Shown here piece after piece: positions 2,529 through 40,766 of a DNA stretch of 64,000 bases. The notes beneath the pieces are model-generated. The model made no database searches, was not told the origin of the DNA, and was given only the letters and a program-made list of their open reading frames with translations. Both the position numbers and the translations under genes were made by a program. How positions within the stretch are numbered: the first letter of the stretch is position 1; every line of letters starts with the position of its first letter. Source of the stretch: Anaerolineae bacterium (lineage in GTDB: Bacteria > Chloroflexota > Anaerolineae > DRVO01); assembly GCA_013178015.1 (NCBI GenBank), contig JABLXR010000013.1:1-64000 (forward strand). The letters run 5' to 3'.

Positions 2529-3791
2529 TCACTCCACTCGTCGCAGCCCGGGAATGGCCCAGAACAGGGCCAGCGCGAAGAGCCCACAGAGCACCGCCGT
2601 GCCCGCCACCGCCACCGGTCCACCCCAGATGTCGGCCGCTGCCCCCGCCAGGAGCGTGCCTACCTGCTGGGAGCCCACGAACAGCAGGCTGTAGAGGCTC
2701 ATCACTCGCCCACGCATACGGCCGTCCACCAGCGTCTGCACTAGCGAGTTGTCCAGTGCCTGCACTGCCACGAAGGCAGCCCCTGCCGCCGCCAGCACCG
2801 GGACGGCCAGCGCCGCCACCGGGCTGAAGGCGAAGGCCACCAGCGCTACGCAGAACAACCCTGTGACCAGAGCCAGCCGCCGGCCCCGAGCCACCGAGGG
2901 CAAGGTGGCCACCCAAAGCGAACCCAGCACGGCGCCCACCCCTACCGACGCAGTCAGGAACCCCAGTCCCTTCTCGCCCACGTCCAGCACGTCCCGGGCG
3001 AACACCGGCATCAAGTTCAGGAAGGGCGTGCCCAGGAGGCCCACCGCCCCCGCCAACGCCAGCAGACCCATAAGGACGGGTTGGCCCAGCACGTAGCGGT
3101 ATCCGTCCAGGGTACTGCGGCCCAGCCCACGCGAGTCGGGCGATGCTACCCGGTCCGGTCCCCGCATCAGTAGCAGGGCCACCACCGCCCCCAAGTAAGC
3201 CACGCCGTTGACCAGGAAGCACCCGGCCTCGCCCACCTGCGCCAGCAGAAGGCCTCCCAGGGCGGGGCCGAAGGCCCGCGTGCCGTTGAACAGGGAAGAG
3301 TTGAGAGCGATGGCATTGGTCAGGTCCTCCGGTCCCACCATCTCCACCACGAACGACTGCCGCGCCGGCTGGTCCAGCGCTCCCAGCACCGCCCACACCA
3401 TCTCCAGGAGGACGAGGTGCCAGATGCGCACGGCGCCGCTCCAGGTAAGCCCCGCCAGGGCCAGGGCCTGCACCGCGAGGCCGACCTGGGTGAGCAGGAT
3501 CAGACGTCGCTTGGGCATCCGGTCGATGAGCGCTCCGCCCACCAGCGCCACGGGCAGCGCCGGCAGTACGCCCAGGAAGGATACGTACCCCAGAGCGAAG
3601 GCCGAGTCGGTGAGCCGCAGCACCAGCCATCCGCGGGCCACCACCCGCATCCACATGCCGGTGAGGGAGAGAGCCTGCCCCAGCCAGAAGAGCCGGAAGT
3701 CCCGGTGCGCCAGCGAGCGAAAGGCACCTCCACGCTGTCCGCTCGCCGCGGCGGCGGCTGCCTGGGAGTGGCCCGCACCTGGGTACCTCAT
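2529..3791 (-). CDS. MFS transporter (MFS_3, exporter-like)
   Basis: A 420-residue major facilitator superfamily protein with about 12 hydrophobic segments. The N-terminal half carries FRLFWLGQALSLTG and an interhelical DRMPKRR loop, the MFS motif A region, as in the EntS/MFS_3 efflux group. The long central hydrophilic loop has a PDRV stretch. The start codon overlaps the stop of the giant TPR gene by four bases (ATGA), which indicates translational coupling. It is probably an inner-membrane efflux carrier. The substrate is unknown; its place in an envelope-polysaccharide unit does not define one. Confidence 0.85.
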   Translation of the reverse strand: MRYPGAGHSQAAAAAASGQRGGAFRSLAHRDFRLFWLGQALSLTGMWMRVVARGWLVLRLTDSAFALGYVSFLGVLPALPVALVGGALIDRMPKRRLILLTQVGLAVQALALAGLTWSGAVRIWHLVLLEMVWAVLGALDQPARQSFVVEMVGPEDLTNAIALNSSLFNGTRAFGPALGGLLLAQVGEAGCFLVNGVAYLGAVVALLLMRGPDRVASPDSRGLGRSTLDGYRYVLGQPVLMGLLALAGAVGLLGTPFLNLMPVFARDVLDVGEKGLGFLTASVGVGAVLGSLWVATLPSVARGRRLALVTGLFCVALVAFAFSPVAALAVPVLAAAGAAFVAVQALDNSLVQTLVDGRMRGRVMSLYSLLFVGSQQVGTLLAGAAADIWGGPVAVAGTAVLCGLFALALFWAIPGLRRVE

Positions 3792-6700
3792 GGCGCCACC
3801 ACCTTCACCCTGACCTCAGCGTAAGGCGGATAGTTGCCAGTGCTGTCCACCGCCGTCAGCCGCAAGATGTACTCGCCCGGAGCCAGCGTGCCCGTGCTCC
3901 AAACCGCCAGCACCCCACCCTCGACCTGCCGGTCCGACTGATGTATCACGGTCCACGCCCCAGGAGTGTCGGCTGGGGCGCACTCCAGCTTGTAGTAGGC
4001 GAAGTCGGCGATGGCCGCCGTGCCCAGCACCTCCACCTTTCCGCTCAGGCTCTGGCCCGCCACAGGGGCAACGATCTGCACCGCTCGCTGCTGGCGACTC
4101 ATCTCGTCGAGCCGGGCCCGGACGTCTTCGGCGGCGGCTCCACTCCCTCCCAGGCTGAGGAACCTCCGATAGCTGGCCTCGGCAGCGGCGAAGTCCCACT
4201 GCTCCTGGTAGACGTGGCCCAGGCGGCGGTGGGCCTCGGCGTAGTCAGGAGCCAGCGCCGCCGCGGCCGCGTACTCGCGCAACGCCTCCGCTCGCTGACC
4301 GGACCACTGGTACACCAGCCCCAACGCCATGCGCACCCACAGCGATTGGGGCTGCGACTGAGCCATCCCCTGCAGCCTGGCTAACGCCGACGGCAACCCC
4401 ACACTGCGCCGGTAGGCCCGCACCAGTTGGTCGTACAGGTCGCTCTGTCGGGGCTCCAGAGCGAGGGCCCGCTCGTAGCTCTCTACGGCCGCCGTGGGCT
4501 CGTCCAGGCGGGCGGACTGCAGGTTGCCCAGCGCCACGTACGCCGCCGCCAGCGTCGGCTCCGCGGCCACGGCCCGCCGGTAGGATTCCTCCGCCGCCGC
4601 CATCTCCCCCAGCCCCAGCAGCACGTCGCCCCGGAGCAGCAGAGCCATTCCAGACGAAGGATCCGCCGCCAAGGCCGCTTCAACGAGCGATCGGGCGCCG
4701 GCGAAGTCGCCGGCGCTGACCAGGACTCGAGCCAGGCCCAGGCTGATGCCCGGGTCACCGGGCCGAAGGGCCAGGGCCTGCCTGTAGGACTGCTCGGCCG
4801 CCCGTGGGTCCCCTAGTTGTACCTGCAGCTGGGCCAGAAGCACGTAAGGGGTGGGATCGGTGGGGTCGTAAGAAGCGGCGCGGCGGTAGGCGGCCGCTGC
4901 CGCCTCCCAGTTGGAGTTCAGCTGGTACGCCTGCCCTAGCTTCATCTGGGCCGCGGCGCTGGGGGGCGCCAGCTTCTCATAGCGCTGGTAGGCCACCAGC
5001 GCCTCCGCGTACCGGCCCAGAGCCCGCTGCACGTCTCCCAGCGTGAGATAGGCACTGGCGTTCTCTGGGTCGAGCGCCACCGCCCGCTGGACGCTTCTCA
5101 AGGCTGCCTCGTGCTGACCCAGAGCACTGTTCACCTGGGCGTGCACCAGCAGCGCCGATGCCGAGTCGGGCGCCTTGTCCAGCGCCTGCTCCACCCAGGC
5201 GAGTGCCTTCGTCAGCTCTCCCTGGGACAGAGCCAGTTGGGCGAAGGCCACTAGCACTGAGGGCGACTCGGGCTCCCGCCTTCTCGCCTCCTCCAGCGCC
5301 GATCGGGCCTTATCCCGCAGGCCCTGCCCCTGGTGGACCGCGGCGAGCGCCAGCCAGGGCTCGGCGCTGGTCGGGTTGGCCACCGCGGCCGCCTGGAGGG
5401 CGGCGACGGCTGACAGGGGATAGCCCAGAGCCTGCTCACAGCGCCCCTCGCCCATGAGGCCCCCATACGACTTGGGGTCAAGGCGGAGGGCCTGGCGGTA
5501 CTGCGTGCGGGCGAGAGGGACGTCGCCCTTCCGGTAGAGCACGTCGCCGAGAACCACCCAGGCCTCGGGCGAGCCGGCATCCGTCTGCACCGCCCTCTCT
5601 GCCGCCCGGTGAGCGTCGTCCTCCAAGCCCGCTGACAAGTAGGCGCGCGCGACCTGCACCCGCACCTCGCTCCCGTCCCGGGCGGTGGCCTCGGCCTGGG
5701 CAAACGCCTCCCGCGCCCGATCGGGACGATCCAATGCCAACCACGCCTGACCCAGCCCCAGGTGTGCCGAAGCCAACTCGGGGTCCGCGGCCAGGGCGGC
5801 TTCATAGGCCTGGATCGCCTCGCCCGCCCGCCCCTGGAGGCGGTAGGCGTCACCCAGCGCCGCCCTCAGCCCGGCCCCGTCCGGGTAACGCGACAGGGCC
5901 TCGAGCAACAGCGCCTCCGCCTGCTCGGGCTGCTGCGCCGCCAGGTAGGCCCCCGCCCAGTGGAGGTACCCCGTGGTGCCGTCGTACACCAGCGTCAGGT
6001 AACTCCGATACTGCTCAGCGGCGGCCTCCAGGTCGCCCCGGTCCCGGTACAGGTCACCGAGGGCCAGTCGAGCCGCGGCCGACCCTGGCTCCACCGCCAG
6101 GGCCCGGAGCAGACTGCGCTCAGCCTCCGTCCACTGCCCCTGAGCTGCCAACGTCCCCGCCAGCCCGACGTGCCCGGCCGCGCTGCCCGGCTCGCGCCTT
6201 GTCGCCTCTCGGTAGGCTGCTTCTGCCTCACCCCAGCTGCCGTTGGCTGCCTCCAGCCGTCCCAGCGCCAGCCAGGGCCTGGGGTCAGCAGGAGCCAACC
6301 CGGCGGCCGCCTCAAACTGGGCCCGGGCCTCGCTCCCCTGCCCGAGGGTCAGGTACACTTCGCCTCGGGCCAGACGTACGTCAGCCGAGCGCGGTTGAAG
6401 GGCCTGGGCCCGATCCAGGTCGGCAAGAGCTCCCTCAGCATCGCCGCTCTGAAGCAGGATCAGCGCCCGGCCGGCGAGGGCCGTCGCCGACTTGGGATGC
6501 GCCTCGACGGCGGAGGAGGCGATCCGCACCGCTTCCTGTACGTCACCCTGGGCCAGGCGCAGGTTCGCCAGGGCTAGGAGTGCGGGCTCCTCCGAGGGCG
6601 CGTCCTCCAGAAGACGGGCCACCACCGCTTCCGCCTCGCCCGGGGCGCCGCTGTCGGCGAGGGCCCGCACCAGCGCCAGCCTTGCGATGGTCGAGGAGGG

Positions 6701-9700
6701 ATCGGCGATCAGGGCACTCTGGTAGGCCGCCATGGCGCGGTCCAACTGCCCCAAGTGACGGTAGGCGTCCCCCAAAGCCACATGGGTCTCGACGGATTCG
6801 GGTCTGATGGCCAGGGCCTCCTGATAGGCACTGATGGCCTCCTCGGGCCGGCCCAACCGCAGCCGAAGCTGCCCAATCCTCAGCCATCCCGACGCGTCAC
6901 TGGGCGCGGCGGACACGGCCCGCCAGTAAGCCCTTGCTGCCCCGTCGAAGTCGAGCCTCCGCAGCAAGAGATCGCCCAGAGCGACTTCCGGAGCCGCCAG
7001 GTGGCGATGCAGAGCCACCGCCCGGCGAAACGTATCCTCGGCTTGGTCCAAGAGCCCCAAGTCCGTCTGCGCCTTCCCCAGGGCCAGCAGCAACTCGGGG
7101 TCCCCCGGGCTGGCATGCAGACCCTGGCGATAGGCCGTTATCGCCCACGCCGGTCCCCGCTCCGTCAGCCACACGTTGCCCAGGGCCAGCCAGGCGGAGG
7201 CTACACCCGGGCGGGCGAGAGTCACAGCGCGGAAGGCCTCTTCCGCCGCCTCGACCTCCCCCGCCTCGAACAGAGCCTGGCCCAGTGCCAGTGCCACCTC
7301 GCTCGACCCGCTGTGGGCCGTCAGGGCCTGAGTCAGGGTCGCGACCGCCTCCGGAGCGTGCTCCGCGGCGCGCTGCACCGCCGCCAGGGCCACCTGCGCC
7401 TCCGCGCTGCCCGGGTACAGCTCCAGCAGCCTGCGAGCGGCTGCCTCCGCCTCCCCCAGCTGCCCACCGGCCAGCCAGGCGCGGGACAGGCTGAGGTGTG
7501 CCGGCAGATAGCCAGGCTCCAGCGCCAGAGCCGCTTCGTACTCGGCGACAGCCTGCTGCGGGTTGCCGGCCGCCAGCAGATGGTCGCCCACGGCCACTCG
7601 GACGGCGGCCGATCCAGGATTGGCGGTCACGGCGGTCCGGACCGTCTCATTGGCCTGGACCCGGTCTCCCAGCCTGGCCAGAGCCGCGGCCACGGCAGCG
7701 TGCGCCTCCGGCTGGGAGGGGTTCAGCTGGGCCGCCTGGCTGTACTGAAGCAGCGCCTCCAGGGGGCGGCCCTCGCGCTCCAAGAGTCCGCCCAGGCCTA
7801 GACGTGCCTTTAGGTCGGACGGGGCTACGCTCAGGGCCCGCTCGTAGGCGTTGCGCGCGGCCTGATAGTCGCCCCGCCGTTCCTGCGCCTCGGCCAGTGC
7901 CACCCATCCCTCGGCGAAACCGGGGAAGCGTTCGGTCGCGCCTTCGAGAACCGCCAGCTCTCGGTCCCACTGCCCCGCCTCTTTCAGCATCCGTGCCCGA
8001 GCCAGGAGCACGTCCAGTTGGGGACGGATGCCGTCAGCCAGATCGAGGATGGCGGCGGCCCTGTCGTCCCTGCCCTGGAGGCGAAGCAGCTCGTGCAGCG
8101 CCAGATAGGCGCTGGACTCTCCCGCGTTCCGAGACATGGCCTCGCGGAGCAGTCCCTCGGCCGATTCGGGGTCACCGATGAGCAGGTACATCTCGGCCTG
8201 GGGCACCAGCCCGGCAAGGCCGAACGGATCGGCCACGGCGGCAGCCCGGTAGGCGTCCAGCGCCTGGCCTGTCTGCCCCTGGCTCCGGAGCAGGTCGCCC
8301 AGCCTCAGCCACGCCTCGGGATTGCCGCGGTTAAGGTCAGTGGCCCGAGAGTAGGCCTCCAGCGCCTCACCCATGCGCCCCTGCAGTCTGAGGGCGTCGC
8401 CCAAGGCCACGGCGGCGTCCGCCCACCCGGGGGCCAGCGCCACCGCCCGACGGGCGGCCTCCTCTGCCTCTGCGGGCCGACCAAGATTAGCGTAGGTGCG
8501 GCTGAGAGCCAGGTTGAGGTCGAGGTTGCCGGGCGAGCGACTGAGAGCCTCCCGTAGCACGTTCAGGGCATCTTCGGGCCGGCCCAGGGACCGGTAACCC
8601 TCGGCGAGGGCCACCTGAGCCTGGGAATCTCCCAGGTTCCTGCGGGCCGCCTGCTGGAGCTGCTCCAACCCCTCCAAGGGTCGCCCCAGAGCCGAGAGGG
8701 CCCGCCCCAGGCCCACCCGGGCCGCCGTGGAGCTGGGGTCCAGCTCGATAGCCCGGGTGTAGGTGTCGGCGGCGGCCTCAAACTGAGCCCGACGGTAGTA
8801 GGCATCGGCCAGGAAGGCCAGGGCAGTGGACGACGTGGGATCGGCCTCGGCCACCAGCAGGTACTGGTCCAGGGCTTCGTCGTACAGGCCCCGGGCCTCG
8901 TATACCTGGGCCAGCGCCACTCGGCCGGCCTCGTACGCTCCGCTCGGAAGCAGAGACTGCAATCGCTGGCGGGCCAGCATTGCCGTATCCCTTTGCCCGT
9001 CGTCGGGCCCGTCTCCGGAGGCGGCCACTAGCGCCTCTCCGGATAGCGCCTGCAGCCTGCCCGCGATCGACGCCGGCCCTAGCGCCAATCCGCCCCCTTG
9101 CCCTCCCGCAGTCCCCAGGCTGAGCGCCAGCTGGTACTGAGCCAGGGCATCGGCCTGCCTGCCCATGGCGGCGTAGGCCTGGGCCAGGCTCCGGTAGCCT
9201 CCGATGAAGTCGGGACGGACCGTGACCGCCTGTTGGTAGTAGCCGATGGCCTGCTGCCGGTCGCCCAGCAACTCGTAGGCCCGCCCCAGGGCGATGTTGG
9301 TCTGGCTGGAACGCGGAGCGTAGCGCTGCGCCGCCTGGAAGGCGCTCAAGGAAGCCGTAGGGTGCCCCAGCTCGTAGTGCGCCTGAGCCAGGGCCAGGTA
9401 GGTGAAAGCGTTCTCGGGCTCCAACTCCAGCGCCTGCCGATAGGCGCCGATGGCCTCCACCCAGGAAGCCTGCCGCGACAAGAGGTTGCCCATGGCGTAC
9501 CAGGCCGCAGCCGAACCGGGCTCGACTTCCAGCGCCAACCGATAGTACGACCCGGCCTCCTCCGTTTGACCCCGGTCCTCGTACAGGCCGGCGAGCATCA
9601 AGTAACCCTCAGCTCGGAACGGGGCCCGTTCCACGGCCCGTCGAGCGGCTGACAACGCCTCTTCGTAGCGCAAGTGGCGCCGGTGATACAGAGCCAGGAA

Positions 9701-12700
9701 CAGATAGCCGGCGGTCTCCTCCGGATCGCGGGCGATGGCGGCCTCGATAGTGGCCTCGGCCTCCTCCGGGTGCCCCCCCTCCTCGTACAGCATGCTGAGC
9801 GCCAGGTACACCGGCTGCGCCGGCTCCGCCTTGAGGTCGGCCACTAGGATTGCCCGTTGGTAGGCGGACTCAGCCGCGTCCGGCCCCTGGTCCAGCCTGA
9901 GCGCCTCAGCCAGCTTCACCCACAGATCGGTACGCCACGGGGCCAGTCGAGCCGCCTGACGGAAGGCGGCGACGGCCTCGTCGTACCGGTGCCTAGCCAT
10001 GAGGTTGCCGCCCAGGGTGCTCCAGTTGGCGGCGGTCGGAGCAGCTTCCACCGCCTTCTTGAACGCCTCTCCCGCGCGGTCGTGTATGCGCCGGCTTTGC
10101 CACAGCTTGCCCACAGTGAGGTAGTAAGCACTGCTTCCCGGCCGATGAACCAGCCCGACGGCCGCCTCGTAGGCTGCTGCCGCCTCCCCCAGCCTGCCAG
10201 CGAAGAGGTAGGCGTCCCCTAGCCGCAGGCGCAGGTACGATACCTGGGGCGCCTCGGCGACCGCCCGCTGCCAGGCGAGCAGGGCCTCCCCCGGCCTGGC
10301 GTCCGCCTCATACGCTAGGGCGGCGGCGGCGCACAGGCATTCGTCTGCCTTGCCCCTTATCACCGGCTCCAGAAGGGCCACCGCCTCAGTGGGTCGGTTC
10401 CGAATCTGCCACGTCTCCGCCAGCCCCATCAGCGCCAGCCGGTCCTCTGGGTCGGCCTCCAGCGCCCGGGTGTAGGCCAGCTCCGCGCCCTCCCAGTCTC
10501 GGCTCTCCAGTAGGGTGTTGGCAGCGATGGCGCCGTGCTCCTCCGGCGGAGATTCCACCCGGAACAGGCGATAGCGATCATCGCGCGCCACTTCGGTATA
10601 GGGCTCACCGGCGTGGCGGAATTGGCAGCTAAGAGGGTGATCGTCGGGCAGCAACACGTAACGCACCGGGTACCGGCGCAGTATGTCCACCACCTGGGCG
10701 TCTAGCTTCTCGGCCCGGTTGAATGTGTCCAGGTCGCGAATGCGCTGCAGGGCCTCGTCCTGTCGCTCGGCGGGGAACTCCTCGCTGGTGTTGGTAGCTC
10801 GATAGGCGACCAGATCCGGCTTGCCCACATAGGCGGGTACTATCAGGTTGGTGGCGTAATCGGCTATGAGCACGCTGTCCCGATCGGGGGCGCCGCGGAG
10901 GTAGTCGAAGATCAGAGTGGGCGCGTCTATCCTCACCTTGTCGGTGAGCAGCTCCTGGCTGTAGGCGCGCAGCAGCGGCAGGAGCACCAAACTAAGCCCG
11001 GCCAGGAAGAGTGATGGGCCCGCTTGTCTGGCTAAGGTCGCCCATCGGCCCGGCAGCCGGCCGAACAGGGCCGCCGCGCCGCGGTATACGACGTACCCCG
11101 GAATCAGAGTGACCGGGAGGGGCCATGCCATGCGGTTCACCTGCCAGGGCGTCACCGCTCGTCCCACCAGGGGAGTGATGAGGGGGCTGAACCCGAGCAC
11201 CAGGTAGGCGAGGGTAATTGCCAAGAGGTACCGGGCCAGGTGATCCCGGCGGAAGAGAGGCAATAGGGGCACCATGGCCAGCGCCAGCACCGGCACCACG
11301 TCCAGCAACAGGCCAGGGTGAGCCATGTAGCGGTCGTCAGCCAGTATGAGGAGCTTGCGCGAATTGAGCTGGCTCCAGAGCCGGGTCAGCATGAATGGGT
11401 TCTCGTCGCCCATCGTGGAATCGAGCACCGACGGCCTCGCCCCCGGCATCTTGAGGGTCTCCGTCCACACGTAGGGCAGCACCGGGGCCGGCCCGGAGAC
11501 CACCGGCAGGTCTACGAACGTCTCCGGGAAGAGGTAGCCCTCCCGCGTCTCCTGGGTGGTCTGCCGCTGGAACAAGGGCACCACCATCGTGGCCGCTACC
11601 ACCACCGCTAGCGCCGCCGCCCTAGCCAGGTTCTTGAGCTTCTCCCTTTCCCAGAGCCAGTGGATCCCAGCGAAGGACATCGTTCCCACGGCGAAGAAGA
11701 GCACGTCCAGGGGGTGCACCACGGCCATGCCCAGGCCCACTAGGGCGGCGCAGGCTATCTGCCGGGGCCCGCCCCCCCTGAGCCAGCGGGCCGCGAAGGT
11801 CATGCCCACTGGCAAGGGAATCAGAAGCATGGCGAACTTGTCCGAGGCGATGCGCCGGAACAGCATGTACGACCAGATGTTGCGGTGGAAGGGGTTGGCC
11901 AGGAGGATAACGAAGTGGACTAGCACCAGGAACAGGGCCAACCGACGGTTGCCCGACAAGTGCCGGAGCAAAGTGTACAGGGCGAAGAGGGACACCACTC
12001 CCAGGAGGGGGGTGAAGTAGCCATGCACGAAGGCTACCGGGTCCAGGCCCCCTAGGCGGGCGGCGAAGCCGGTGAGCAGCAGCCAGGGGTTGAACGCCGT
12101 CCTGGGCGAAGCAGACAAGCCGGCCCCGAACAGAGGCTCCTCCACCCCGATCCGGTCGGCATCCATCACATCCCGGACCAGAGCCATCATGGCTAGGAGG
12201 TCCCCGTCCACTCGCCCCTGCACTCCACCATGCGAGGACAGGGGGAACAGGCTGAGGGCAGCCACCAGGACCAGGCCAGCCAGCACCGCGTTGCCCCAGC
12301 CATCGAAGCGCAGCGCCGCCGCTCCTGTGGTGATGCCGGCCACCCTTCGCGATAGATCCAGCAGCACCAGAGTGGCCACCAGGCCGGCGAAGACGGCAGT
12401 GTACGCCGCCACGCTCCCATGCAGGAACATGACTACGAAGGCGGGGATGCCGGCCAATGCCAGGCTGAAGGCGAAGGCGTAGCTCAGCCGCTCCATGTTG
12501 CCGGCCGCTTCCTCTCCAGGCAGTACGAGAGGGAGCAGGAGCAGCCCCGGGGCCAGGAACACGGCTGAGAAGCCCACCGCAGCCCGCAGGACGCCGGGCA
12601 CCCCCAGCCACGAAGGCCACACCGAGGCCAGCAGAAGAGCCGACCCCAGGGCCACCAGAGCTGCCCACGGGCCCACCCAAGCTGGCCTCCGGCCCGGGGC

Positions 12701-12754
12701 CTCGGTGCCCCGCCGCACCAGCGGCAACCCTTCTGCACGCGGCTTGGACGTCAT
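3788..12754 (-). CDS. Giant polytopic membrane protein with about 60 TPR repeats
   Basis: 2988 residues. Residues about 25-610 are hydrophobic with 12 or more predicted membrane segments and a VDGD acidic motif in the first large loop region, resembling GT-C-type polytopic glycosyltransferases. A soluble stretch (about 610-740) follows. Residues about 741-2885 are almost unbroken tetratricopeptide repeats; dividing by 34 gives roughly 63 units (for example AYTRALEADPEDRLALMGLA). The last 100 residues form a beta-rich, Ig-like domain ending in RVKVVAP. The start follows GGGGGAGC, 10 bp after the lipoprotein gene. The 3' end overlaps the MFS start. The TPR superhelix could scaffold a glycan-synthesis or secretion complex. 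The DNA is a long run of diverged repeats, which produces many false reading frames on the plus strand. Substrate and partner are unknown. Confidence 0.85.
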   Translation of the reverse strand: MTSKPRAEGLPLVRRGTEAPGRRPAWVGPWAALVALGSALLLASVWPSWLGVPGVLRAAVGFSAVFLAPGLLLLPLVLPGEEAAGNMERLSYAFAFSLALAGIPAFVVMFLHGSVAAYTAVFAGLVATLVLLDLSRRVAGITTGAAALRFDGWGNAVLAGLVLVAALSLFPLSSHGGVQGRVDGDLLAMMALVRDVMDADRIGVEEPLFGAGLSASPRTAFNPWLLLTGFAARLGGLDPVAFVHGYFTPLLGVVSLFALYTLLRHLSGNRRLALFLVLVHFVILLANPFHRNIWSYMLFRRIASDKFAMLLIPLPVGMTFAARWLRGGGPRQIACAALVGLGMAVVHPLDVLFFAVGTMSFAGIHWLWEREKLKNLARAAALAVVVAATMVVPLFQRQTTQETREGYLFPETFVDLPVVSGPAPVLPYVWTETLKMPGARPSVLDSTMGDENPFMLTRLWSQLNSRKLLILADDRYMAHPGLLLDVVPVLALAMVPLLPLFRRDHLARYLLAITLAYLVLGFSPLITPLVGRAVTPWQVNRMAWPLPVTLIPGYVVYRGAAALFGRLPGRWATLARQAGPSLFLAGLSLVLLPLLRAYSQELLTDKVRIDAPTLIFDYLRGAPDRDSVLIADYATNLIVPAYVGKPDLVAYRATNTSEEFPAERQDEALQRIRDLDTFNRAEKLDAQVVDILRRYPVRYVLLPDDHPLSCQFRHAGEPYTEVARDDRYRLFRVESPPEEHGAIAANTLLESRDWEGAELAYTRALEADPEDRLALMGLAETWQIRNRPTEAVALLEPVIRGKADECLCAAAALAYEADARPGEALLAWQRAVAEAPQVSYLRLRLGDAYLFAGRLGEAAAAYEAAVGLVHRPGSSAYYLTVGKLWQSRRIHDRAGEAFKKAVEAAPTAANWSTLGGNLMARHRYDEAVAAFRQAARLAPWRTDLWVKLAEALRLDQGPDAAESAYQRAILVADLKAEPAQPVYLALSMLYEEGGHPEEAEATIEAAIARDPEETAGYLFLALYHRRHLRYEEALSAARRAVERAPFRAEGYLMLAGLYEDRGQTEEAGSYYRLALEVEPGSAAAWYAMGNLLSRQASWVEAIGAYRQALELEPENAFTYLALAQAHYELGHPTASLSAFQAAQRYAPRSSQTNIALGRAYELLGDRQQAIGYYQQAVTVRPDFIGGYRSLAQAYAAMGRQADALAQYQLALSLGTAGGQGGGLALGPASIAGRLQALSGEALVAASGDGPDDGQRDTAMLARQRLQSLLPSGAYEAGRVALAQVYEARGLYDEALDQYLLVAEADPTSSTALAFLADAYYRRAQFEAAADTYTRAIELDPSSTAARVGLGRALSALGRPLEGLEQLQQAARRNLGDSQAQVALAEGYRSLGRPEDALNVLREALSRSPGNLDLNLALSRTYANLGRPAEAEEAARRAVALAPGWADAAVALGDALRLQGRMGEALEAYSRATDLNRGNPEAWLRLGDLLRSQGQTGQALDAYRAAAVADPFGLAGLVPQAEMYLLIGDPESAEGLLREAMSRNAGESSAYLALHELLRLQGRDDRAAAILDLADGIRPQLDVLLARARMLKEAGQWDRELAVLEGATERFPGFAEGWVALAEAQERRGDYQAARNAYERALSVAPSDLKARLGLGGLLEREGRPLEALLQYSQAAQLNPSQPEAHAAVAAALARLGDRVQANETVRTAVTANPGSAAVRVAVGDHLLAAGNPQQAVAEYEAALALEPGYLPAHLSLSRAWLAGGQLGEAEAAARRLLELYPGSAEAQVALAAVQRAAEHAPEAVATLTQALTAHSGSSEVALALGQALFEAGEVEAAEEAFRAVTLARPGVASAWLALGNVWLTERGPAWAITAYRQGLHASPGDPELLLALGKAQTDLGLLDQAEDTFRRAVALHRHLAAPEVALGDLLLRRLDFDGAARAYWRAVSAAPSDASGWLRIGQLRLRLGRPEEAISAYQEALAIRPESVETHVALGDAYRHLGQLDRAMAAYQSALIADPSSTIARLALVRALADSGAPGEAEAVVARLLEDAPSEEPALLALANLRLAQGDVQEAVRIASSAVEAHPKSATALAGRALILLQSGDAEGALADLDRAQALQPRSADVRLARGEVYLTLGQGSEARAQFEAAAGLAPADPRPWLALGRLEAANGSWGEAEAAYREATRREPGSAAGHVGLAGTLAAQGQWTEAERSLLRALAVEPGSAAARLALGDLYRDRGDLEAAAEQYRSYLTLVYDGTTGYLHWAGAYLAAQQPEQAEALLLEALSRYPDGAGLRAALGDAYRLQGRAGEAIQAYEAALAADPELASAHLGLGQAWLALDRPDRAREAFAQAEATARDGSEVRVQVARAYLSAGLEDDAHRAAERAVQTDAGSPEAWVVLGDVLYRKGDVPLARTQYRQALRLDPKSYGGLMGEGRCEQALGYPLSAVAALQAAAVANPTSAEPWLALAAVHQGQGLRDKARSALEEARRREPESPSVLVAFAQLALSQGELTKALAWVEQALDKAPDSASALLVHAQVNSALGQHEAALRSVQRAVALDPENASAYLTLGDVQRALGRYAEALVAYQRYEKLAPPSAAAQMKLGQAYQLNSNWEAAAAAYRRAASYDPTDPTPYVLLAQLQVQLGDPRAAEQSYRQALALRPGDPGISLGLARVLVSAGDFAGARSLVEAALAADPSSGMALLLRGDVLLGLGEMAAAEESYRRAVAAEPTLAAAYVALGNLQSARLDEPTAAVESYERALALEPRQSDLYDQLVRAYRRSVGLPSALARLQGMAQSQPQSLWVRMALGLVYQWSGQRAEALREYAAAAALAPDYAEAHRRLGHVYQEQWDFAAAEASYRRFLSLGGSGAAAEDVRARLDEMSRQQRAVQIVAPVAGQSLSGKVEVLGTAAIADFAYYKLECAPADTPGAWTVIHQSDRQVEGGVLAVWSTGTLAPGEYILRLTAVDSTGNYPPYAEVRVKVVAP

Positions 12755-28584: not shown

Positions 28585-28602
28585 TCCCGTCAACTGCATA
28601 GG

Positions 28603-28730
28603 CCTGCCGTAGAGGTGCCCCCGGCCCGGATGCCAGGGCATAATGGCGAAGCCGGTGCAAGTCCGGCGCTGTCGCGCAACTGTAAGGTCGAGCCTACCCT
28701 CGGCCAAGCCAGGTCGCCCGCCTCTATCGG
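28603..28730 (+). promoter_or_regulatory. Cobalamin (B12) riboswitch
   Basis: The conserved cobalamin riboswitch blocks occur in order: AGGTGCC (near 28613), GAAGCCGGTGCAAGTCCGGC followed by GCTGTCGCGCAACTGTA (28648-28684), and the B12-box-like AAGCCAGGTCGCCCGCCT (28706-28723). It lies between a promoter and cobO. The sequence between it and cobO has hairpins that could act as the expression platform. It should turn cobO down when adenosylcobalamin is plentiful. The boundaries are approximate. Confidence 0.9.
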
Positions 28731-28823
28731 GCTCCGCACGAACCCGCGAAAGGAGAGTGCGAGCGCGAGCGCAGGCGCGCTCGCCGCCTAGGGTCGGTAC
28801 CTACACTCCCGACCCTCTCGCAT

Positions 28824-28910: not shown

Positions 28911-29471
28911 GTGGCAGCACAAAGGGACACCGATTCCGGTGAGGCCGCCGAGAGGACGGGGCTTGTCATGGTATTCACCGGCTGCGGCAAGGGGAAGACG
29001 ACGGCGGCTCTCGGAGCCCTGTTCCGTGCCTGGGGCTGGGACTGGCGCACTTGCGTCATCCAGTTCGTCAAGGGCGACGGCGGCGATTGGGGCGAGGTCC
29101 GCGCCGCCCGCCGGCTGGGCATCGAGTGGCACACCATGGGCGCCGGCTTCACCTGGCAGACTCAGGACTGCGAACTGGCGGCCGCCAAGGCGCGTCAGGC
29201 CTGGGAGCTGGCTCAGCGGCGAATCGCCTCCGGAGCCTACGACCTAGTGATCCTGGATGAGATGACCTACGCCTTCACCTGCGGCTGGCTCGACCTGGAC
29301 CAAGTCCTCGCCTGGATCTCGCGCCATCGTCCCCCGTTCACCAGCCTGATAATCACGGGCAGGGGCGCCCCCGAGCCACTCATCCGGTTCGCCGATCTAG
29401 TCACTGAAATGCGCGGCCTCAAGCACCCCTACGACCGAGGCCTCCAGGCCCAGATGGGCATAGAGTACTGA
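28911..29471 (+). CDS. cobO: Cob(I)yrinic acid a,c-diamide adenosyltransferase
   Basis: A 186-residue ATP:corrinoid adenosyltransferase of the CobA/CobO/BtuR family. It transfers the 5'-deoxyadenosyl group from ATP to cobalt(I) corrinoids in coenzyme B12 synthesis or salvage. The P-loop is GCGKGKTTAALG, followed by family blocks VIQFVKGD, DLVILDEMTYAF and ITGRGAPEPLIRFADLVTEM. It starts at GTG 28911 behind GGGAGG. The upstream cobalamin riboswitch independently supports the assignment. No other B12 synthesis genes are adjacent. The B12-binding radical SAM enzyme at 56078-57556 would be a possible consumer of cobalamin. Confidence 0.95.
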   Translation: MAAQRDTDSGEAAERTGLVMVFTGCGKGKTTAALGALFRAWGWDWRTCVIQFVKGDGGDWGEVRAARRLGIEWHTMGAGFTWQTQDCELAAAKARQAWELAQRRIASGAYDLVILDEMTYAFTCGWLDLDQVLAWISRHRPPFTSLIITGRGAPEPLIRFADLVTEMRGLKHPYDRGLQAQMGIEY

Positions 29472-38210: not shown

Positions 38211-39152
38211 ATGAGCGATGCGGCTGTGGGCGAGAAGAAAGCCGTGGTGGTAGGTGCTGCGTGCATAGATATCCGTGGGCAGGCCCGCGGCGCCCTGGTC
38301 GCCGGCACTTCTAACCCAGGCGTCATCCGGTTGACTGTGGGGGGAGTGGGCCGGAACATCGCCGAAGCCTTGGGGCGGCTGGGCGTGCCGGTGTCGCTCA
38401 TCAGCGCTGTGGGGGACGACGACTGGGGACGCGACATCCTCCGTCGCACCGAAGCTGGCGGGGTGGACGTGCGGTACGTTCGGGTATGCCCTGCCGAGAG
38501 ATCGGCTGCCTACCTGGCCGTGTTCGATGAGGCGGCCCAACGAGTGGTCTCCATTGACAACATGGATCTGATGCGCCGGGTTGACGGCCGCTACCTGTCC
38601 AGCTTGCGCCCCCTCTTCGCCCAGGCGAGCATAGCGGTGGTGGACGGTAACCTCTCCAACGCCGCCCTCCAGTCTCTATTCCGCCTATCGGAGCGCTACC
38701 GCTTTCCCCTGGCCCTGGACCCGACTTCGGCCGTGCTGGCGGCTCGCCTGCGGCGACATCTGCACCGGTTCCATATGGTGACGCCCGACGTGGCCGAGGC
38801 GGAAGTCCTCTCGGGGATCAGCATCAACTCGGAGACGGACGCGGTGCTCGCCGCCCAGGCCATCGTGGCCGCCGGGGTGAAGGTGGCCATCGTCACCATG
38901 GCGGAGGAGGGCTCGGCCTACGCTACCTCCGAGACGTTCGGGAGGGTGCCCGCCATCCGCTGCGAGGTGGTGGACCGGATCGGCGTGGGCGACGTGCTGA
39001 CGGCCACCGTGGTCTTCGGCATACTGCACGACCTGCCGGTGGATGAGGCAGTGCGCATGGGGACGGCTGCTGCCGCCTACACCATCCGCTGCCCCGAGGC
39101 CGTGTGCCCCGACCTTAGCCTGGAGCTCCTGTACGACGCCATTGCCCCCTGA
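38211..39152 (+). CDS. PfkB-family carbohydrate kinase
   Basis: A 313-residue ribokinase-fold kinase. Motifs: an N-terminal GAACIDIRGQA strand, GGVGRNIAEALGRLG (PfkB signature 1 region), ALDPTSAVLA, TPDVAEAE, and the C-terminal anion hole and catalytic Asp in DRIGVGDVLTA. The canonical sequence is GAGD; here it is GVGD, with Asp retained. Overall the layout resembles pseudouridine kinases and nucleoside kinases, but no pseudouridine-5'-phosphate glycosidase is adjacent. It phosphorylates a sugar or nucleoside. It ends 15 bp before a strong hairpin. Confidence 0.85.
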   Translation: MSDAAVGEKKAVVVGAACIDIRGQARGALVAGTSNPGVIRLTVGGVGRNIAEALGRLGVPVSLISAVGDDDWGRDILRRTEAGGVDVRYVRVCPAERSAAYLAVFDEAAQRVVSIDNMDLMRRVDGRYLSSLRPLFAQASIAVVDGNLSNAALQSLFRLSERYRFPLALDPTSAVLAARLRRHLHRFHMVTPDVAEAEVLSGISINSETDAVLAAQAIVAAGVKVAIVTMAEEGSAYATSETFGRVPAIRCEVVDRIGVGDVLTATVVFGILHDLPVDEAVRMGTAAAAYTIRCPEAVCPDLSLELLYDAIAP

Positions 39153-39167
39153 AGGTTCGAGGAAACA

Positions 39168-39198
39168 GATGAGGGGGCGGTTGAACCGCCCCCTCATC
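39168..39198 (+). terminator. Perfect 15-bp hairpin after the PfkB gene
   Basis: GATGAGGGGGCGGTT, one unpaired base and its exact complement. It is 15 bp past the PfkB stop. There is no T-tract after it, so it may act as an mRNA 3' stabiliser rather than a strict terminator. Confidence 0.6.
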
Positions 39199-39204
39199 CA
39201 CCGT

Positions 39205-39255
39205 GGCTCCTCGGCGTCTACTTACGAAAGAACTCGGAGGTGACGCCGAGGAGCC
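39205..39255. repeat. Second long hairpin
   Basis: GGCTCCTCGGCGTC (39205-39218) and GACGCCGAGGAGCC (39242-39255) form a perfect 14-bp stem around a 23-nt loop. It lies seven bases after the first hairpin. A small minus-strand frame overlaps both arms. Confidence 0.6.
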
Positions 39256-39274
39256 GTAGTTCTGGTACTACCAT
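39218..39274 (-). CDS. Possible 18-residue peptide (minus strand)
   Basis: A minus-strand frame encoding MVVPELRLLGVTSEFFRK. Upstream lies a complete anti-SD match, AAGGAGGTGAT (minus strand, 39293-39283). Spacing to ATG 39274 is long (12 from GGAGG). A second frame begins at ATG 39284, directly against the SD, and gives a different 20-residue peptide ending at 39222. Both fall in the hairpin above. The SD is the main evidence that something is translated here; a structured regulatory RNA is an alternative. Confidence 0.3.
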   Translation of the reverse strand: MVVPELRLLGVTSEFFRK

Positions 39275-39299
39275 CCACTGGCATCACCTCCTTCGTTGT

Positions 39300-39728
39300 A
39301 GGATAGCCGCGTTGGGCGGGCCCCAGGCCCGCAACAAGAGCCAGTATGCCATACCGCCAGCATGAGGGCAAAGTGCACCTGGCTCCGCTGGCTTCCTATA
39401 ACGCCTCAGGATCGGGGCGATCGGTCCCGAGGCGAGCACCGCTGCTCAGGTCCTTCGCTGCGCTCAGACTACGAGCGCATCCCCCGACAGCATTGCCGCT
39501 AGAACTCCCCTGGAGGAGGGCGAGCGCCCAGGCGCGCCTTGCCTCACGTAGCAGCCGCGCCTGGGGGGCGTCCACTCGTCAAGAGGGACTTGAGGGACAT
39601 CGCCTTGCTCTCGTAGACGGCGGAAGACCGGGCTCTGAAAGCCTGTGTTGGCGGCGCCTACGCGGGACTACCCCATGTGACTGCCATCTGAACCCACTCG
39701 TCCCCCCGATCCGCAGCTCTTGGGCTTC
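39300..39728. other. Non-coding stretch before the selenocysteine tRNA
   Basis: About 430 bp with no frame that looks coding. It contains several GC-rich complementary segments (for example GCGCCCAGGCGCGCC near 39527 and GCGCCTGGGGGG near 39557). I looked for tmRNA, RNase P, SRP and 6S signatures and found none. Confidence 0.4.
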
Positions 39729-39757
39729 TTGACTGGGAAGGGCGGCTCACATAGAGT
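39729..39757 (+). promoter_or_regulatory. Promoter of the selenocysteine tRNA gene
   Basis: TTGACT (39729-39734) and TAGAGT (39752-39757) are spaced by 17 bp. The predicted start near 39764 is about five bases before the mature tRNA. Confidence 0.65.
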
Positions 39758-39768
39758 GAGATCATCAG

Positions 39769-39866
39769 GGGAGTGGATGGGCCCCGGTGGGCTCCGCGGT
39801 CTTCAAAACCGTCGGGGGCGCCCCACGAGGTTGCCCCGGTGGGTTCGACTCCCATGCACTCCCGCC
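39769..39866 (+). tRNA. selC: tRNA-Sec (anticodon TCA)
   Basis: A 98-nt tRNA with the special bacterial tRNA-Sec layout. The acceptor stem is GGGAGTG with CACTCCC plus an eighth position. There is a 6-bp D stem (GGGCCC, loop CGGT, GGGCTC), an anticodon loop CTTCAAA with TCA at 39803-39805, a long variable arm (about 39811-39834) and a T arm GTGGG-TTCGACT-CCCAT. It ends GCC; the final A of CCA is not encoded. It reads UGA as selenocysteine with SelA, SelB and SelD, none of which is in the window. The eighth acceptor pair is a mismatch by my fold. Confidence 0.9.
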
Positions 39867-40017
39867 TCCCTGCGGTGCATCGTGGTCCCCTGGCTTCTTC
39901 TAGCTGCAGAGCCAGCTCAGCCACTAGAGAGAGGCGCGCCCGTGCACCTGAGCGGGGTGACTGCACCTGCCCACCACGCGCAGAGGTCTGGGCCCGACGC
40001 CGACAAGGACGGGGTGC

Positions 40018-40224
40018 CTACCGCTTCTGGCGGCTGGGCCTGAGAGACTCTCGCGCCTCCGTGCCCGACCCCCGCCCCGCCAGCTCGGCCAGCCTGGCCT
40101 GCAGAACCTGGATCTGCTCTTCCTGCCAGGCGATGAGCGGTATGCTGCCGGCGGATAAGCCCCAGCAGCTTCTCTCGAGTCGCAGCCTCCGATCGTCTGC
40201 CCATTCACCATAGCCATGGCCCAT
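40018..40224 (-). CDS. Short hypothetical frame with coiled-coil stretch
   Basis: A 68-residue minus-strand frame. The middle, LIAWQEEQIQVLQARLAELA, is a strong heptad coiled coil similar in character to the leucine-zipper-like N-terminus of IS66-type transposases. No further transposase domain, inverted repeat or target duplication is seen. It may be a transposase remnant or a chance frame. Confidence 0.25.
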   Translation of the reverse strand: MGHGYGEWADDRRLRLERSCWGLSAGSIPLIAWQEEQIQVLQARLAELAGRGSGTEARESLRPSRQKR

Positions 40225-40568
40225 CTCGGGCCACAGCGCACAATTCCAGACTCGTCCCCCCGACCCTGACCGGTCACCACCGCCCCGGTTGCGGCCAGAC
40301 CAGACCAGTGTAGTATACCGGGGCTGAGTGTCCCTGCTTCATATCCGGAGACTCCCTCTACTGGCGGCCCAGTCGACTGTGGCTGTCGCCCGAAGGCATG
40401 GGGGACGCGCCCATCTGATCCTGCGGCTCCTGGCAGAATGGGCCCGGACCGCAGTCAGGGACCGATCCGTTCACGCGGCGCGCCCCTGGCCCGCCCCAAA
40501 GAGGAGGGCAGTCCTACCACAACAGTCCGTGCAGGCGCTACGGGTTGCGCTGCCAGCAGGAGGCCACT

Positions 40569-40766
40569 GTGGAACAGCTTGTCGAGCTCCTTCCTTTCCT
40601 GATTCCGCTGATAGTCCTGGAACTGGCGTTGATGGTGGTGGCCCTGGCCGATCTGCTGCGGCGGGAGCGCACCCGGAACCTTTCCAAAGGAGTCTGGATC
40701 CTCATCGTCGTCTTCATCCAGATCTTCGGTCCTATTGCCTACTTCCTGGCTGGTCGGGAGGAGTAG
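40569..40766 (+). CDS. PLDc_N-type two-helix membrane protein
   Basis: A 65-residue protein with two hydrophobic segments (about 8-30 and 43-60) joined by a basic turn LLRRERTRNLSKG, and GPIAYFLAGREE at the end. This matches the PLDc_N (phospholipase D nuclease N-terminal) membrane module found alone beside ABC exporters. It starts at GTG 40569, five bases after AGGAGG. The stop is one base before the ABC ATPase start. It is probably part of that exporter or a membrane partner for it. Confidence 0.8.
   Translation: MEQLVELLPFLIPLIVLELALMVVALADLLRRERTRNLSKGVWILIVVFIQIFGPIAYFLAGREE

Follow-up and report, generated by a model that had tools for sequence, protein, structure and literature searches.

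The stretch of DNA analyzed here, hereafter the window, comprises 64,000 nucleotides of an Anaerolineae bacterium and carries a gene for a selenocysteine tRNA (selC). Our data indicate, with a probability of about 0.96, that this gene is the only functional selC of a bacterium whose selenocysteine (Sec) system is complete, that it has its own sigma-70-type promoter, and that it takes part in the pathway proposed below.

The tRNA is an ordinary bacterial selenocysteine tRNA

ARAGORN identified tRNA-SeC(tca) at positions 39769 to 39866 of the plus strand as the sole tRNA in the whole window. The Rfam family RF01852 matched positions 39769 to 39863 with a score of 76.7 bits (gathering threshold of 47; E value of 5e-14), covering all 91 model positions. 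These two methods are independent, and both results bear out the initial annotation, which had described a tRNA with a 6-bp D stem, a TCA anticodon, and a long variable arm. According to the sequence and the Rfam alignment, the D arm (39779 to 39794, plus strand), an identity element for SelA (PMC7609411), is composed of a 6-bp stem (GGGCCC/GGGCTC) and a 4-nt loop (CGGT). The TCA anticodon is located at positions 39803 to 39805 (tRNA position 35) within the loop CTTCAAA, and the Rfam alignment revealed the long variable arm seen in tRNA-Sec. The outermost pair of the anticodon stem is unpaired, as is the case in the class members compared, and the gene does not encode the CCA end.

To place these features in context, we compared the tRNA-Sec genes of the class, 128 of 131 loci being parsable. 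The unpaired G following the acceptor stem (G73) is shared by 127 of the 128 tRNAs. The acceptor strands have 8 nt each and the T stem has 5 bp; at the eighth acceptor pair, G39776 faces G39856 (plus strand) as a G.G mismatch, so that the stack contains 12 standard pairs and one mismatch. This position is occupied by G-C in 108 of the 128 tRNAs and by G.G in 11, which belong to several families. This recurrence rules out a structural novelty of the acceptor stem, and the G.G pair is a minor variant and the only oddity of this tRNA. Acceptor-T stacks of 12 bp are known from 47 bacterial tRNA-Sec, most of which are bulged (Secmarker; PMC5330540).

The long variable arm and the unusual acceptor stem could also point to a UGA suppressor or a serine-type, allo-tRNA-like molecule by which UGA would be translated as a different amino acid, and allo-tRNAs likewise deviate from the 7/5 arrangement (PMC7609411). 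However, the 6-bp D stem, the 4-nt D loop, the UCA anticodon, the 8-nt acceptor strands, and the 5-bp T stem argue against such a molecule, as does its co-occurrence with selA, selB, selD, and UGA codons at known Sec sites (see below), and we consider this explanation highly improbable. The tRNA in the window is an ordinary bacterial selenocysteine tRNA.

selC has its own conserved promoter

The initial annotation began at position 39729, which corresponds to the −35 box of a promoter, and the tRNA proper begins at 39769. The well-spaced promoter that it had reported was recovered in our promoter scan as a sigma-70-type element at 39729 to 39757 (plus strand), in which TTGACT (−35; 39729 to 39734) and TAGAGT (39752 to 39757) are separated by 17 nt, with 9 of 12 consensus matches. 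This match is unique within the 1.6 kb from 39150 to 40750, where 0.2 matches were expected from shuffled sequences.

The promoter is retained in another genome of the same genus (G001), in which the tRNA-Sec gene is located on a small contig and is preceded by TTGACT-17-TAGATT. The boxes, their spacing, and the distance of 11 nt between promoter and tRNA are the same in both genomes. The local alignment of the two sequences begins at the −35 box and shows 86% identity over 139 bp, whereas just upstream of the promoter most of the sequence has diverged. The anticodon arm of G001 shows a compensatory change from a G-C to an A-T pair. Across the class, a promoter match of at least 9/12 was present in the 60 nt upstream of 81 of the 128 tRNA-Sec genes, as compared to 95 of 2,560 shuffled sequences, indicating that in this class selC usually has a promoter of its own. 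A related genome (G090) contains two high-scoring tRNA-Sec genes (L121 and L145), for which its contamination of 9% may account.

The partner genes are scattered in the genome

The genome of the strain has 4.57 Mb distributed over 97 contigs, and the tRNA-Sec gene is located on contig C13. In a profile search, no selA, selB, or selD gene above the family cut-off was found on this contig, and the term "orphan" in the initial annotation is to this extent correct. However, it holds only locally: the same genome contains selA on contig C24 (536 bits), selB on C34 (336 bits), and selD, with one in-frame TGA, on C50 (342 bits). SelA, SelB, and SelD all scored above the NCBIfam curated cut-offs, and the sel genes are scattered in the genome. 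No tRNA-Sec gene was found within the 1.5-kb flanks of 12 sampled selB and 12 sampled selD loci of the class. Among 31 related genomes, selB and selD were each above the cut-off in 26, and both were missing from four. No selB was found in G001, an assembly of 530 contigs, which is probably due to an assembly gap.

The isolation of the tRNA from the sel genes, together with the G.G mismatch in its acceptor stem, could suggest a remnant, either decaying or acquired, that has lost its role in Sec insertion. However, several families of the class share the G.G mismatch, both the tRNA (with a compensatory change) and its promoter have been retained within the genus, and no other tRNA-Sec scoring above 60 bits is listed for the genome of the window. 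Furthermore, selA, selB, and selD are present together with five UGA-containing genes that need this tRNA. Given the three sel genes in the same genome, we rejected a decayed or orphan tRNA, and such a remnant appears very unlikely.

At least five genes have TGA at known Sec sites

The initial annotation had suggested that UGA-interrupted genes elsewhere might be misannotated and that formate dehydrogenase should be inspected along with the sel genes. We found TGA codons at known Sec sites in at least five genes on other contigs, a lower bound that is probably incomplete as families were searched one by one. The formate dehydrogenase alpha subunit FdhA (C19; TIGR01591, 879 to 886 bits) has its TGA at residue 136, a known Sec site, within VDHCARLUHAPTVAGL, and FdnG, the alpha subunit of formate dehydrogenase-N (C52; TIGR01553, 1260 bits), has its TGA at residue 218 within EHQARIUHSATVAGL. 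In SelD the codon is located within TRAAGUAAK, and in the peroxiredoxin PrxU (C6; NF040737, 371 bits with a cut-off of 270) within DFTFVUPTEL. The fifth gene encodes a ResA-like thiol protein (C62; L082, 3332 to 4063, minus strand) with the motif WASWUGC, which scored 159 bits against NF041054, below the cut-off of 300. Folding predicted hairpins immediately 3' of the UGA codons of both fdhA and fdnG, each with GGTCT in its apical loop. Taken together, the sel genes, whose absence from the full genome would have contradicted the initial annotation, and these five genes suggest that the organism makes selenoproteins, as had been anticipated.

Other searches yielded no further candidates. CMD was absent from the genome of the strain, whereas 12 controls matched, and none of the TusA and thioredoxin matches contained a TGA. 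The searches for GRDA and UGSC matched none of the control genomes and are therefore uninformative. A selenoprotein within the window was also considered and rejected: the only match for an in-frame TGA in the codon usage scan (position 2529) resembles an ordinary gene junction.

By analogy with the bacterial Sec pathway as summarized in PMC13188914 (SerRS, SelA, SelD, and SelB with SECIS), the tRNA would be transcribed from its sigma-70-type promoter and loaded with serine by SerRS. SelA would then convert the serine to selenocysteine using selenophosphate supplied by SelD, which is itself a selenoprotein in this scheme. SelB would finally bring the Sec-tRNA to UGA codons followed by a putative SECIS hairpin in fdhA, fdnG, selD, prxU, and the resA-like gene. 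As the tRNA shows, UGA has to be translated as selenocysteine here; ordinary annotation would truncate or split the five genes, including those for a formate dehydrogenase and selenophosphate synthetase.

A putative small transcript family shares the spacer with selC

A second conserved block (39186 to 39294; 88% identity) emerged when the spacer was compared to that of G001. The minus strand from about 39350 to 39160, in the same spacer as the tRNA-Sec gene, contains a member of a putative family of small free-standing transcripts. The spacer between this element and the tRNA promoter (39294 to 39728) is approximately 300 bp longer than in G001. In the order of the minus strand, the element comprises a possible −10 box (GGCATACT, 39343 to 39350), a 5' hairpin (39316 to 39332), a CTATCCT motif conserved among homologues (within 39300 to 39307), a strong Shine-Dalgarno sequence (AAGGAGGTGATGCC, 39280 to 39293), an open reading frame (ORF) of 18 codons with a GTG start (39222 to 39278), a 14-bp hairpin (39242 to 39255 with 39205 to 39218) that covaries across homologues, and a final, terminator-like hairpin (39168 to 39198).

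When 396 genomes of the class were searched at the DNA level, 27 contained matches, 22 of which are true homologues. The mini-ORF has between 15 and 19 codons in these homologues, and in the 19 of 22 in which a hairpin arm of at least 8 bp could be placed, the stop codon lies −1 to +10 nt from the 3' arm. In the alignment of the hairpin, 43 cells had changed on both sides, as compared to 15 in shuffles, and the covariation score was 0.369, as compared to 0.185 in shuffles; this signal was lost when the partner was shifted by 1 to 3 columns. In 94.5% of the cells, the Shine-Dalgarno stretch and GCATCACCTC within the ORF are complementary, with columns that are nearly invariant and thus provide no covariation support for this pairing. 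The pairing and the hairpin are mutually exclusive. In the family of the window (f1), the ORF is partly in a different frame from that of the other families, and ORF length and stop position are retained, suggesting that being translated may matter more than the peptide sequence. The genes flanking the element vary between genomes outside the family.

No Rfam family matched the element, and we found nothing specific to it in the literature. We tentatively propose, at slightly less than even odds, that the minus strand of the spacer encodes a member of an undescribed family of small transcripts of this class, in which the Shine-Dalgarno sequence GAGGUGAUGC would pair with GCAUCACCUC in the ORF in competition with the covarying hairpin, whose 3' arm starts from the stop codon. 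Which fold forms would depend on whether the mini-ORF is translated, and the element may thus act as a self-contained sensor of translation or as a regulatory RNA. It is unlinked to tRNA-Sec outside this genus and, as far as the evidence goes, unrelated to selenium. If confirmed, it would represent a new regulatory RNA family and a more interesting lead than the tRNA.

Other features of the window

The window also contains a cobalamin riboswitch (28596 to 28739, plus strand; RF00174, 57.9 bits) with a gene for a CobA/BtuR corrinoid adenosyltransferase shortly downstream (28911 to 29471), as well as a very long ORF of 2,988 codons on the minus strand (3788 to 12754).

Comparison with known selenocysteine systems

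The Sec finding is real, was rightly interpreted, and is ordinary, adding one more example to a well-known system. The tRNA shares with bacterial tRNA-Sec (RF01852) the D stem and loop sizes, the UCA anticodon, the long variable arm, and G73. Its 8-nt acceptor strands and 5-bp T stem have the lengths of the 8+5 layout, from which it differs in the G.G at the eighth acceptor pair. As in the bacterial Sec trait (TIGR00474, TIGR00475, and TIGR00476), all three partner genes are present above curated cut-offs, and selD has a Sec codon, as is the case in many bacteria. UGA is found at the Sec position of each of the families FdhA, FdnG, PrxU, and WAxxUGC. The ResA-like protein has the motif of the last of these (NF041054) but is shorter than the model and below its cut-off; it is possibly a short variant of that selenoprotein family. 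In contrast to the selABC operon, the genes of this strain are spread over four contigs.
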